This document shows positions 29,434 through 34,328 of a stretch of 46,248 bases of DNA, piece after piece. The notes below the pieces were generated by a model, which was given only the letters and a program-made list of their open reading frames with translations, did not search any database and was not told the DNA's origin. How positions within the stretch are numbered: the first letter of the stretch is position 1; each line of letters starts with the position of its first letter. The DNA comes from Nitrospirota bacterium (GTDB lineage: Bacteria > Nitrospirota > Thermodesulfovibrionia > Thermodesulfovibrionales > UBA1546), in contig JACRGY010000010.1 in the NCBI GenBank assembly GCA_016212165.1, positions 1 through 46,248 of the forward strand, read 5' to 3'. The position numbers were made by a program, and so were the translations under genes.

Positions 29434-30402
29434 ATGGAAAACATCATTGATATTGCAAAAAGAGTTTTAAAAATAGAGGCTGATGCTATTCTTGCCCTTA
29501 CAGATAAGCTCAACAGCAATTTTGAAGAGGCGGTCAATACTATCTTCAAAAGCAAAGGCCGGGTTGTTGTTACAGGGATGGGGAAGTCGGGCCTTGTCGG
29601 GAAAAAAATAGCAGCCACACTTGCTTCTACCGGCACTCCGGCGTTCTTTCTGCATCCTGCCGAGGCAATCCACGGGGACATCGGCATGGTAACAGCAGAT
29701 GACGTGATAATCGCCATCTCAAACAGCGGGGAGACAGAAGAGCTTGTCGGAATAATCCCATTCTTAAAAAGATTTAATGTGAGCCTGATTTCAATGACAG
29801 GCAATCCAAATTCTACTCTCTCAAAGGCAGCAGATATTACCCTTGATGTGTCTGTAAAAGAAGAGGCATGTCCTCTCGGTATTGTGCCGACCGCATCAAC
29901 AACTGCGACCCTGGCAATGGGTGATGCAATAGCAGTTGCGCTTTTAATGAAAAGGGGATATAAAGAAGAAGACTTTGCCTTTTTCCATCCAGGAGGCAGC
30001 CTCGGGAAAAAACTATTCATAAAGGTTAAAGATTTAATGCACACAGGAGATGCGCTCCCCCTGGTGTCACCCGATAAATCCATGACCAAGGCTGTTATGG
30101 AAATATCATCTAAAAGGCTTGGGGTTGCTATTGTTGTGGATTCTGATAAAAAAATACTCGGGGTCATTACAGACGGCGATCTGAGGCGCGGGATAGAAAA
30201 ATGGGGCAAGGCAGTATTCGATATGAAGGCAGGCGAGGTAATGACAAAAAATCCAAAGACCATTTCAGAAGACGAGCTTGCAGCAAAGGCGTTATCCATC
30301 ATGGAAAGCAAATCTATAACTTCTCTTGCAGTGCCTGATTCAGATGGAAAGGCAAAGGGCATAATCCATCTTCATGACATTTTGAGGAAGGGGATAGTGT
30401 GA
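29434..30402 (+). CDS. kdsD: Arabinose-5-phosphate isomerase (KpsF/GutQ family)
   Basis: A 322-residue protein with an N-terminal SIS domain (VVVTGMGKSGLVGKKIAATLASTGTPAFFLHPAEAIHGDIGM, IAISNSGETEELVGIIP) and two C-terminal CBS domains (about 205-320; DLMHTGDALPLV, VMTKNPKTISEDELAAKAL). It makes arabinose 5-phosphate from ribulose 5-phosphate for KdsA. It lies in the KDO cluster, after a palindromic element. Length is normal. Immediately downstream the operon is interrupted by the three-gene module at 30487-33628. Confidence 0.96.
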   Translation: MENIIDIAKRVLKIEADAILALTDKLNSNFEEAVNTIFKSKGRVVVTGMGKSGLVGKKIAATLASTGTPAFFLHPAEAIHGDIGMVTADDVIIAISNSGETEELVGIIPFLKRFNVSLISMTGNPNSTLSKAADITLDVSVKEEACPLGIVPTASTTATLAMGDAIAVALLMKRGYKEEDFAFFHPGGSLGKKLFIKVKDLMHTGDALPLVSPDKSMTKAVMEISSKRLGVAIVVDSDKKILGVITDGDLRRGIEKWGKAVFDMKAGEVMTKNPKTISEDELAAKALSIMESKSITSLAVPDSDGKAKGIIHLHDILRKGIV

Positions 30403-30486: not shown

Positions 30487-32343
30487 ATGCGAATTAAGAA
30501 AATAACAATTGATAACTTCCGATCTATTAAGCATATCGAAATAAATTGCGAACCCCTAGGCATTTTTATAGGCCAAAATAATCATGGCAAGTCAAATATT
30601 TTCTTGGCTCTACAATTCTTTTTTGAATCTTCTTTCAGGGTTTCCGACGATGACTTTTTTAAACATGCAGATACCCCTAATGTCTTAAGTGTCGAACTCC
30701 AGTTCTTCGATTTAGAAGAGCAAGATAAAACCACTTTTAAAAAATACCTGCTTCCTGATCAGACAATCAGAATTTTGAAGACAGCCAAAACTGCTGAAGA
30801 TAAGAAAATCGAGTCATTTTATAATGGCTATATAAACGCTCCTCAGGAAGAATGGCTGGTTCCAGACAATGCAAGTAATTATACCAATAGAGATACTTTA
30901 ACTAGCCTACCATCTGAATTCATTAATCTTTTGCCCCCCACAGGAAGACTAACAAAATCTCATATTGAAGAAGCACAACTAAAATATATCGAAGCGTATA
31001 GGGATAACTTGTCTTTTGATGTCAGGATAGAAACAGGTCCATTCATGGGTGCAAAAACTTTTGCCTCTGGAATTCTAGGCGATTTTTATTTAATTCCTGC
31101 GGTTCGTGATATATCAGATGAAACCAAAGTGCAAGCAACTACCAATTTTGGGAAACTGCTGAATAATCTAATAAAAGAGATGTCCTTAAACAACCCAGAT
31201 TTTATTGAGATAAAAGAAAAACTTAGTAGGCTTCTTTCATCCTTAAATGTTGAAGGTGGCAAAAGACCTAAAGAGCTTTTTGAATTAGAAAAGTCTTTAG
31301 CGCAAGAATTAAAGCCATGGGAAGTTTCATTAGATATAGAAATTACACCGCCAGATATCGAAAAACTTTTTCAGCTTGGCACTTCTATATTTGTCAATGA
31401 CGGGATAAGAACCCCAATTGAAATGAAAGGACACGGTATACAGCGATCCCTTATCTTTGCATTATTTAAGGAATGGGCAAAAACCATAAGAAAAATGAGA
31501 GAGCAAACTACTGATATAGGTGTAAAGAAAAGCAGGTATGCATCTCAGTCCACATTTTTTGCTATCGAAGAGCCTGAATTATTTTTGCATCCTCAGGCTC
31601 AAAGACAAATAATGGTTTCTTTAGGGGAACTGTCAAATGCCCCTAATCATCAAGTCTTTTTATGTACACATTCAACATGGTTCGTGGATATGGACTTGTA
31701 TAGATCAATTACTGTTGTAAGAAAGCCATCTTCTGAAGCGGGAACGCTAATTGCACAATGTACAAAGGAACTCTTTGAAGGAGGAGAGCGGCCTGACAAG
31801 AAAAATCGCTTGAAAATGGCGTATTGGTTTAACCCAGACAGAAGCGAATTATTTTTTGCTAGGAAAGTTGTGCTGGTAGAAGGGGAAACCGAAAAAATTA
31901 TATTCCCTCTTTTAGCTCAAAGAATTGGCTGTTATGATGAAAATGTTTGCATCATAGATTGCGGCAGCAAATTCAATATTCCTCTTTACATAGAAGTACT
32001 AAATGCTTTTGGCATTCAATATTTTATAGCATATGATGAAGACCCTATGAGCGATGAACTGATAGAAAAAAACAAGAAAGGATTATTGGATGAGAAAGAG
32101 AAGTCAAAATTTGAAGCACAACAAAGGTGTTTTGCTGAAAACAAAAATATTGAAACCTTAGTAAGTTCTCCTGATAAAACATGGATGCTAACACCCGACT
32201 TTGAAAAAGTTTTCGGTATCTCCCGTTCCGCATCTGATAACAAAGGGAAGCCACTTGCGGCTATCGAAAAAATTAACAATGTTTTTGATATTTCTTCTGC
32301 CCTTGAAAAAAATATTCGTAAAATGTATGAATTAACACTATGA
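30487..32343 (+). CDS. OLD-family ATP-dependent endonuclease (ABC ATPase + Toprim)
   Basis: A 618-residue protein. The N-terminus reads MRIKKITIDNFRSIKHIEI with Walker A GQNNHGKSN (29-37). After a central helical and dimerisation part come an ABC-signature-like region EMKGHGIQRSL (312-322), Walker B FFAIEEPELFLHP (357-369) and the H-loop LCTHST (H395). The C-terminal Toprim has VVLVEGETEKIIFPLL (E465) and FIAYDEDP (D517, D519). These are nucleases seen alone (P2 Old) or with a helicase (Gabija GajA). Here no helicase follows; instead two small genes are translationally coupled (ATGA overlap). Base and codon use is more AT-rich than the flanking KDO genes. A role in phage defence is inferred from family and context. 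Confidence 0.9.
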   Translation: MRIKKITIDNFRSIKHIEINCEPLGIFIGQNNHGKSNIFLALQFFFESSFRVSDDDFFKHADTPNVLSVELQFFDLEEQDKTTFKKYLLPDQTIRILKTAKTAEDKKIESFYNGYINAPQEEWLVPDNASNYTNRDTLTSLPSEFINLLPPTGRLTKSHIEEAQLKYIEAYRDNLSFDVRIETGPFMGAKTFASGILGDFYLIPAVRDISDETKVQATTNFGKLLNNLIKEMSLNNPDFIEIKEKLSRLLSSLNVEGGKRPKELFELEKSLAQELKPWEVSLDIEITPPDIEKLFQLGTSIFVNDGIRTPIEMKGHGIQRSLIFALFKEWAKTIRKMREQTTDIGVKKSRYASQSTFFAIEEPELFLHPQAQRQIMVSLGELSNAPNHQVFLCTHSTWFVDMDLYRSITVVRKPSSEAGTLIAQCTKELFEGGERPDKKNRLKMAYWFNPDRSELFFARKVVLVEGETEKIIFPLLAQRIGCYDENVCIIDCGSKFNIPLYIEVLNAFGIQYFIAYDEDPMSDELIEKNKKGLLDEKEKSKFEAQQRCFAENKNIETLVSSPDKTWMLTPDFEKVFGISRSASDNKGKPLAAIEKINNVFDISSALEKNIRKMYELTL

Positions 32344-32858
32344 GAATCCTTACGGATGAAGAAATAGGTGCTTTAATCTCAGAGCCGAAGATTGTGCCTA
32401 CCAATTGGTTTTCACGATTAGAGACAAAAGACAAAACCCACTATCAGCACAAAGAAAAGGAAGCTGAAATTGAAGGGAACGGCGGCAATTTTTTTAGAAT
32501 AATCCTCAGACAAAACAAGCTTAATATTTTAGATTTTTCAATTATTCTCACAGTAAAAGAGAAGGATTCCACTCTGGAGTATATTTTGCTCAGATATAAC
32601 GGGAAGCATCCATCAAAGCATACTAATAAATGGGAAAAAGAAAATGGATTGCCCGACCACACATTTGCCCCAGCGTTTCATATTCATAAGGCAACTCAAA
32701 GATATCAGGAAGGCGGCTACAAAATCGATGGTCATGCCGAAGTCACAACAAAATACTCAGACTTCCATGCAGCAGTTGAGCAATTCTTGGTAGAATGTAA
32801 TGTAAAGCGTGAGGATGATAAACAGACATCTCTCTTTGAAGGAGGTGGTATCTCATGA
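32340..32858 (+). CDS. Small protein of unknown function, second gene of the OLD module (DUF6978-like)
   Basis: A 172-residue soluble protein. It starts RILTDEEIGALISEPKIV, has a beta-rich core (FFRIILRQNKLNILDFSIILTV, LEYILLRYNGKHPSKH) and then HTFAPAFHIHKATQRYQEGG with the HIH triplet, and ends in a helix. The pattern recalls the DUF6978 family, whose role is unknown; I am not certain of this. It overlaps both neighbours by 4 bp (ATGA on each side), so all three are co-translated. Several histidines (HKE, KHPSKH, HIH) could bind a metal, but I cannot identify a catalytic site. Confidence 0.82.
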   Translation: MRILTDEEIGALISEPKIVPTNWFSRLETKDKTHYQHKEKEAEIEGNGGNFFRIILRQNKLNILDFSIILTVKEKDSTLEYILLRYNGKHPSKHTNKWEKENGLPDHTFAPAFHIHKATQRYQEGGYKIDGHAEVTTKYSDFHAAVEQFLVECNVKREDDKQTSLFEGGGIS

Positions 32859-33628
32859 ATTTAGAGATTATAGAAAAAGAATTTAAGAGTAAGGTCTGCG
32901 ATGAAATAGCCTTGACACAGGAAGGTTTAAGCAGATTTATTGTCTTTAATCCTTTTATGTTTGATGATGGAGACCATCTTGTTGTTTTGCTAAAGGGCAC
33001 AGAAGGAAAATGGCGTTTCACTGATGAGGGCCACACATTTATGCATGTAAGCTATGATGACATTGACATTGATAAAGGAACAAGGAAAAAGGTTATTGAT
33101 AATGTGCTTGCGAGCTACGGAATAAAAAACCAGGAAGGAGAACTGATCTCTGAGGTTCCCAATAATCAGTTTGGAGACGCGCTATATAGTTATCTTCAAG
33201 GGTTGATAAAAATAACAGACATCAGCTATCTCTCCAGAGAGCGTGTAAGGTCAACTTTTATGGAAGATTTTAGGGCTTTATTAGAAGAAAAAGTTCCGTC
33301 GGAACGACGTATATTTAATTACTTTGATAAGCAACACGACCCTGACGGAAAATATATGATTGATTTCAGAATAAACGGTATGACACGTCCTCTTTTTGTT
33401 TTCGGCGTCTCTAATGATGATAAATGCAGAGACGTAACGATATCATGCCTGCAATACGAAAAATTTGGTGTGCCTTTCAGGACAATGACTATCTTCGAAG
33501 ATCAGGAATCAATAAACCGAAAGGTATTAGCTCGGTTCAGTGATGTTTGCGATAAACAGTTTTCAACATTAGCTACCAATAAAGATAGAATTAGCAAATA
33601 CCTTTCCGAGATTTTAGAAGGAAAATAA
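32855..33628 (+). CDS. DUF1828-domain protein, third gene of the OLD module
   Basis: A 257-residue protein. Residues about 25-70 (NPFMFDDGDHLVVLLKGTEGKWRFTDEGHTFMHVSYDD) match the DUF1828 pattern and the C-terminal half (MIDFRINGMTRPLFVFGVSNDDKCRDVTISCLQYEKFG) is DUF1829-like. DUF1828 proteins are uncharacterised and often lie in mobile or defence contexts. GGAGGTGG precedes its ATG, which overlaps the previous stop by 4 bp. There is no signal peptide and no membrane segment. It may act as a sensor, inhibitor or nuclease partner of the OLD protein; no function is asserted. Confidence 0.85.
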   Translation: MNLEIIEKEFKSKVCDEIALTQEGLSRFIVFNPFMFDDGDHLVVLLKGTEGKWRFTDEGHTFMHVSYDDIDIDKGTRKKVIDNVLASYGIKNQEGELISEVPNNQFGDALYSYLQGLIKITDISYLSRERVRSTFMEDFRALLEEKVPSERRIFNYFDKQHDPDGKYMIDFRINGMTRPLFVFGVSNDDKCRDVTISCLQYEKFGVPFRTMTIFEDQESINRKVLARFSDVCDKQFSTLATNKDRISKYLSEILEGK

Positions 33629-33640
33629 AATTGGATGTAA

Positions 33641-33760
33641 TTTCCGAAACATTGTCTCGGAAATCACTGAAAGTGAAAAAGGGCAGACACCGTCTGCCGA
33701 AATCATAGTGAAATCCCAGACGGTGTCTGGGAAATTTTAAAAAGCTACACACGGTGTAGC
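33641..33760. repeat. Run of five short hairpins downstream of the OLD module
   Basis: In order: TTTCCGA/TCGGAAA (9-base loop), TCACT-GAA-AGTGA, GGCAGAC-ACC-GTCTGCC, TCCCAGAC-GGT-GTCTGGGA and GCTACAC-ACG-GTGTAGC. The last four have three-base loops. The third and fourth contain CAGACACCGTCTG and its exact reverse complement, so they could also pair with each other. Confidence 0.8.
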
Positions 33761-33788
33761 GAATTGGAATCTAAGCAAAAAGGGCATT

Positions 33789-34328
33789 ATGAAAAAGACA
33801 AAAAAACAACTCGAAAAAATCGCTAAAAAGATAAAGCTCCTCATCCTTGATGTTGACGGGGTGCTTACTGATGGGAGCATTATCCTTGATAATGAAGGAA
33901 ATGAATTCAAGTCCTTCCATGTGCGTGACGGCCATGGGATAAAGATGCTCGTCAGGGCAGGTATTGTAGTTGCAATAATTACGGGAAGGCAGTCAAAGGT
34001 TGTTGAAAGAAGAGCTCAGGAACTCGGTATCGCAGAGGTCTTTCAGAGATGCCATGACAAACGGGTTGCCTATAATCAACTCATTGAAAAATATTCGGTT
34101 AAAGATGACGAGATAGCCTATATCGGTGACGATATAGTGGATATATCCCTTCTGAAAAAAGCAGGCCTTTCAGTGGCTGTTGCAGAAGCTGAGAACGAAG
34201 TTAAAAACGCTGCCATGATGGCAACAAAAAACAGAGGCGGAAGGGGAGCGGTCAGGGAGGTATGTGATTTTCTTCTTAAGGCAAAGGGGCTCTGGAAGGG
34301 CATCATAGATGAGTACTCCAAGACTTAA
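33789..34328 (+). CDS. kdsC: KDO-8-phosphate phosphatase
   Basis: A 179-residue HAD phosphatase. Motif I is LLILDVDGVLTDGS with nucleophile and acid Asp; ITGRQSKVVERRAQELGI and IAYIGDDIVDISLLKKAGL supply motifs II-IV. It removes phosphate from KDO 8-phosphate before KdsB acts. Together with kdsA, kdsB and kdsD the pathway from ribulose 5-phosphate to CMP-KDO is complete here. It overlaps pgsA by 20 bp. The gene starts at ATG 33789 after the hairpin array; no clear promoter was seen between the array and the start. Confidence 0.95.
   Translation: MKKTKKQLEKIAKKIKLLILDVDGVLTDGSIILDNEGNEFKSFHVRDGHGIKMLVRAGIVVAIITGRQSKVVERRAQELGIAEVFQRCHDKRVAYNQLIEKYSVKDDEIAYIGDDIVDISLLKKAGLSVAVAEAENEVKNAAMMATKNRGGRGAVREVCDFLLKAKGLWKGIIDEYSKT

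Follow-up and report, generated by a model that had tools for sequence, protein, structure and literature searches.

A Partner-Swapping DUF6978-DUF1828 Gene Pair Next to an OLD-Family Nuclease Gene in a Nitrospirota Bacterium

Do an OLD-family nuclease gene and the two small genes that follow it form a defense system of their own? The question is raised by a locus of a Nitrospirota bacterium, in which three genes (OLD, P2, and P3) lie between kdsD and kdsC (Table 1). We analyzed a 46,248-nt stretch of DNA that contains the locus (the window) and compared it with related loci in other genomes and in viruses.

Table 1. Features of the kdsD-kdsC region of the window
Feature	Coordinates	Strand	Basis or remark
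kdsD, arabinose-5-phosphate isomerase	29434..30402	+	ORF; left flank of insertion
OLD-family ATPase/Toprim nuclease, 618 aa, class 1-like	30487..32343	+	ORF, Pfam/PADLOC, TsOLD 6p74
P2, DUF6978-family protein, 172 aa, putative effector	32340..32858	+	ORF, profile matches, structure model
P3, DUF1828 protein, 257 aa, putative partner or antitoxin	32855..33628	+	ORF, profiles, structure model
Spacer of short palindromes	33637..33765	+	Common to window and genome G008; possible relic
kdsC, KDO-8-phosphate phosphatase	33789..34328	+	ORF; right flank of insertion

An accessory insertion between kdsD and kdsC

The initial annotation described an AT-rich run of three genes joined by two ATGA overlaps, and the ORF list and GC count bear this out: all three ORFs are complete, both junctions overlap at ATGA, and GC content is 36 to 39% versus 44% (OLD, 35.6%; P2, 38.7%; P3, 36.6%; window, 43.6%). 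The flanking genes that the insertion was said to split are also confirmed. In four relatives the empty kdsD-kdsC junction measures 3 to 17 nt, and the two genes are therefore adjacent when the site is empty. The OLD-P2-P3 insertion is presumably transcribed with the KDO operon.

By its gene content in relatives, the gap between kdsD and kdsC is a defense hotspot in the window's family, a point that the initial annotation did not make. It holds one YhcG/DUF1016 nuclease gene in G001, a genome of the same genus (kdsD and kdsC 97% and 99% identical to those of the window), and a type IIG-like restriction-modification (R-M) protein in G005. The gap of G007, read as type III, encodes a methyltransferase, a UvrD-like helicase, and a Res-like protein, the last without a PADLOC match. 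In G008 (kdsD 87% identical at the amino acid level), a type IIG-like methylase and a 370-aa protein accompany the P2-P3 pair, and in G311, which belongs to a different family within the class, the pair follows a type I-like R-M system, with P3 overlapping the start of kdsC. A second recurrent site lies between yggS and proC. It is occupied in loci L007, L062, and L067 and retains a remnant in L171, and the right-hand neighbor in L063 is proC. Both hotspots are places to seek new defense genes in related genomes.

The spacer upstream of kdsC folds strongly (z = −6.4), and a similar spacer is found in G008. Short palindromes also occur within the coding sequence of the YhcG/DUF1016 gene that occupies the hotspot of G001 (L043, 4698-5915), and those of the spacer resemble them; the spacer is possibly a relic of an earlier occupant. 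A genome-wide repeat was ruled out, as a search allowing up to 3 mismatches places the palindromes only once in the genome.

The OLD protein matches the PADLOC Old model (1.6e−73) and the Pfam models AAA_15 (4.7e−40) and OLD-like_TOPRIM (1.6e−18), and it aligns with TsOLD at 2.1e−29. By its motifs it appears intact: a Walker A motif (G29-S36), LVEGE at 463 (E465), and YDEDP at 516 (D517 and D519). Its nearest relatives in the phylum come from five genomes (27 to 32% identity), and the P2-P3 pair is absent from the 1 to 1.5 kb of flanking DNA fetched for each of them. We do not regard OLD as a gene carried by a phage or plasmid: there is no phage match at 1e−20 and no relative on a viral contig, and its 26 plasmid matches are distant (23 to 37% identity).

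An autonomous pair that changes partners

Scans of genomes and viruses with a P2 alignment, whose matches span bacteria, archaea, and phages, yielded 45 loci in genomes and 40 in viruses. P3 directly follows P2 in 84 of these 85 other loci (44/45 genome and 40/40 viral), and the one exception is cut by a contig end. OLD, in turn, lies directly upstream of the pair in a single locus (L062), where it is a fragment. The only other pair locus with an OLD homologue is L073, in which gajA is followed by gajB, that is, a true Gabija system beside the pair; the pair can thus join either kind of OLD. In L062, a 141-aa OLD tail (68% identical), located elsewhere in the chromosome, keeps the ATGA junction seen in the window, and the DNA is colinear with positions 31954 to 33629 of the window at 77%. 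Because the OLD tail and the same junction are kept at a different site, the OLD-P2-P3 combination has existed more than once, and we regard it as real but interchangeable.

Partners are swapped even among close relatives. In the P3 tree, the window's clade has eight members (support 100/100), and the genes upstream of the pair in it are OLD, a type IIG R-M gene, type I-like R-M genes (two cases), an S subunit gene, an AAA ATPase gene with BrxC/D similarity, the OLD fragment, and, in one case, none. The sister of the window's P3 is that of G008 (91% identity, support 99/96), whose partner is a IIG R-M gene. Since kdsC is only 74% identical between the same two genomes, the pair has probably moved between lineages. 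A frameshift splits P2 in G008 (L008, 6466-6985), where P3 is intact.

Pfam and PADLOC profiles extend the list of partners to Eco57I/IIG (L071, L076, and L085), MmeI (L098), type III Mod or Res (L068, L069, L073, L080, L092, and L095), GmrSD (L097), Methylase_S, and type I methyltransferase. In L166 (1981-6969; genome G349), the pair stands directly after a BrxC gene (PADLOC, 2,025 bits) in an apparent BREX-like island. R-M genes lie directly beside the pair in about 15 of the 45 genome loci, a raw count taken without a background rate, and this linkage may reflect the general clustering of genes in defense islands. The window's genome also carries a second, very distant DUF6978-like and DUF1828/DUF1829 pair (L049, 335-1614; G000:C194).

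These comparisons change how the locus is read. The proposal of a defense-type accessory insertion holds up: P3 relatives (E ≤ 1e−25) occur in 17 of 396 genomes of the phylum, and relatives hold other defense genes at the same site. What does not hold is that OLD and these two partners define a system or are inherited as a unit, given that the pair nearly always occurs without OLD and the five nearest OLD relatives lack the pair. Such separate occurrence is what the initial annotation had named as refuting its proposal, and it is seen from the side of the pair as well as from that of OLD. Nor do the overlaps and co-translation mark a dedicated trio, as had been suggested, because such coupling is also seen with partners other than OLD, whose genes in L063, L067, and L069 stop only a few bases from the pair. 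A defense system cannot be defined from closely overlapping genes alone. The sequences show an autonomous, partner-swapping pair and its hotspot and phage contexts, and the functional unit appears to be this mobile P2-P3 pair rather than the trio. The value of the locus lies in the pair.

Predicted properties and function of the pair

P2 scores 25.7 bits against Pfam DUF6978, below the cutoff of 29.6. The model is matched at E ≤ 1 by 53 of the 71 members of the P2 family (best, 7.3e−12), and P2 matches PHROG 27326 at 5.8e−18; P2 is, by these profiles, a likely divergent member of DUF6978. Eight residues are invariant in the family alignment (R57, R85, H94, N96, H114, H116, R121, and Y122), which suggests an active or binding site. 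The structure model (pLDDT 90.3) found no convincing fold match in PDB (best Z, 5.8) or BFVD, which does not prove that the fold is new.

P3 belongs with DUF1828 (6.7e−25) and aligns along most of its length to DUF1828/DUF1829 proteins (hhalign, 99.3%, 1.8e−20), while the Pfam DUF1829 model does not reach it. Its model has two domains (pLDDT 89.5), whose mutual placement is unsure in view of a pTM of 0.51. Residues 1 to 127 of the model resemble type III secretion chaperones and YbjN (Spa15, Z = 10.1, 111 aligned residues, 2.7 Å). Residues 130 to 257 resemble PD-(D/E)XK nucleases (PspGI, Z = 9.9; Cdn1, 9.3; Can2, 8.8), with scores that barely exceed those of unrelated entries at 7.9. Matches to response regulators (Z up to 7.9) were set aside as background below PspGI, Cdn1, and Can2. 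D170 is 94% conserved; the third strand reads RPLFVFGV, and the ExK motif is absent. The modeled PD-(D/E)XK-like part could nevertheless be an atypical active nuclease, which would make P3 the effector. We discarded a hit between P3 and a CRISPR-associated protein (E = 0.0055) as probably due to chance.

In viruses, the pair sits near phage repressors. A local iterative profile detects a CI-type repressor within 1.8 kb upstream and on the same strand in 35 of 41 viral loci, a count that includes some near-identical loci, and Pfam detects Peptidase_S24 in 28 of 47 upstream proteins. In Pseudomonas phage 5399, cI is followed by a small gene and then by the pair. Temperate phages often keep genes for superinfection immunity beside the repressor.

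We favor, with modest confidence, the explanation that the partner-swapping pair is a toxin-antitoxin-like abortive-infection module and that a class 1-like OLD occupies the variable slot upstream of it, inside the kdsD-kdsC hotspot. The pair would be a mobile accessory of DNA-targeting defense genes and of temperate-phage repressor regions. OLD would form a first layer, acting on phage DNA independently of the pair. P2 would be the effector by means of its invariant His/Arg site, and P3 would hold P2 inactive until infection or until the first-line defense fails. A role in defense, toxicity, and the division of roles between P2 and P3 are what we infer. The toxin-antitoxin reading draws on the kinship of P3 with DUF1828/DUF1829 proteins, on HipAD, and on the HipA_2 operon of L050 (both described below), and it is by this analogy that P2 is assigned the effector role and P3 that of a restraint or sensor. 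Several points weigh against this explanation: P2 has no recognizable enzyme fold, so that the term "effector" depends on the invariant polar residues; in G008 it is P2 that is frameshifted and P3 that is intact; and, as noted above, P3 may itself be the nuclease and the R-M linkage may stem from island clustering.

Alternatively, the pair may be a phage-derived lysogeny or superinfection-immunity module that was captured by bacterial hotspots and is not specifically tied to the function of its partners. The CI-type repressors that adjoin most viral loci, phage 5399 included, agree with such an origin, but in the P3 tree the bacterial clade closest to the window lies apart from the main viral clade and is associated with R-M, and we consider this origin unlikely. 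Somewhat less likely still is that the pair guards its neighbors, sensing inhibition of an adjacent R-M system or nuclease by phage anti-restriction and triggering cell arrest, for which PrrC with type I R-M is the model. The tight adjacency of the pair to type I, IIG, III, and MmeI R-M, GmrSD, Gabija, BrxC, and OLD genes would be expected of a guard, yet many copies stand alone (L007) or beside phage repressors, and it is difficult to imagine one sensor serving partners so different from one another. A dedicated system of OLD and two obligate partners in one complex is improbable: the ATGA-overlapping operon and the identical overlap and colinear DNA at the second site of L062 speak for it, but pair and OLD mostly occur apart, the partner differs even in the sister with 91% identity, and in L062 it is OLD that has decayed, with the pair retained.

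The abortive-infection explanation can be carried further, if doubtfully: DUF6978-DUF1828 could be a general second layer for type I, IIG, and III R-M, OLD, Gabija, BREX, and prophage repressors, mounting an abortive response through a new P2 fold when the first layer fails. That a catalogued but uncharacterized pair is mobile, swaps among most major DNA-targeting defenses, and lies beside phage repressors points to a shared function.

Comparison with known systems

Similar to class 1 OLD proteins (T. scotoductus OLD and P2 Old), the window's OLD combines an AAA_15 ATPase and a Toprim domain in one chain, with conserved catalytic acids and no adjacent helicase. Class 1 OLD genes have been described as standing alone (PMC10568477), whereas the window's OLD is coupled translationally to P2-P3 by an ATGA overlap. 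The locus shares an OLD-type nuclease with Gabija, but no GajB/UvrD-like helicase lies beside OLD, which is flanked by the DUF6978 and DUF1828 genes downstream and kdsD upstream. As for a retron (class 3 OLD), there is no reverse transcriptase among the ORFs adjoining OLD, and the retron Eco8 effector model scores 65.5 bits against OLD, below the cutoff of 250.

HipAD, which was validated against phage and newly implicated DUF1829 in defense in 2026, consists of a HipA-like kinase and a DUF3037+DUF1829 partner; the study describing it suggests that it works in a toxin-antitoxin mode (PMC13092281). P2-P3 likewise comprises two genes, and P3 is related to DUF1828/DUF1829 proteins. However, the locus has neither a kinase (no Pfam kinase match for OLD, P2, or P3) nor DUF3037, and its first gene is DUF6978; HipAD is best taken as an analogy at the domain level only. 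In L050 (3203-5641; G007), a HipA_2 kinase, DUF3037, and DUF1828/DUF1829 each have their own gene, and a DUF1016-like gene comes after the three, an arrangement that resembles HipAD with its partner protein split.

The closest match is the PADLOC phage defense candidate PDC-M24, to which the initial annotation did not refer and which likewise has two adjacent genes in one operon, DUF6978-like and then DUF1828. P3 matches PDC-M24B at 1.3e−22, whereas P2 matches PDC-M24A weakly (0.013). A literature search returned nothing functional on DUF1828, DUF6978, or PDC-M24 and no paper naming PDC-M24. The catalogue already names the pair, and the present analysis adds its association with OLD, R-M, Gabija, and BrxC genes as partners.
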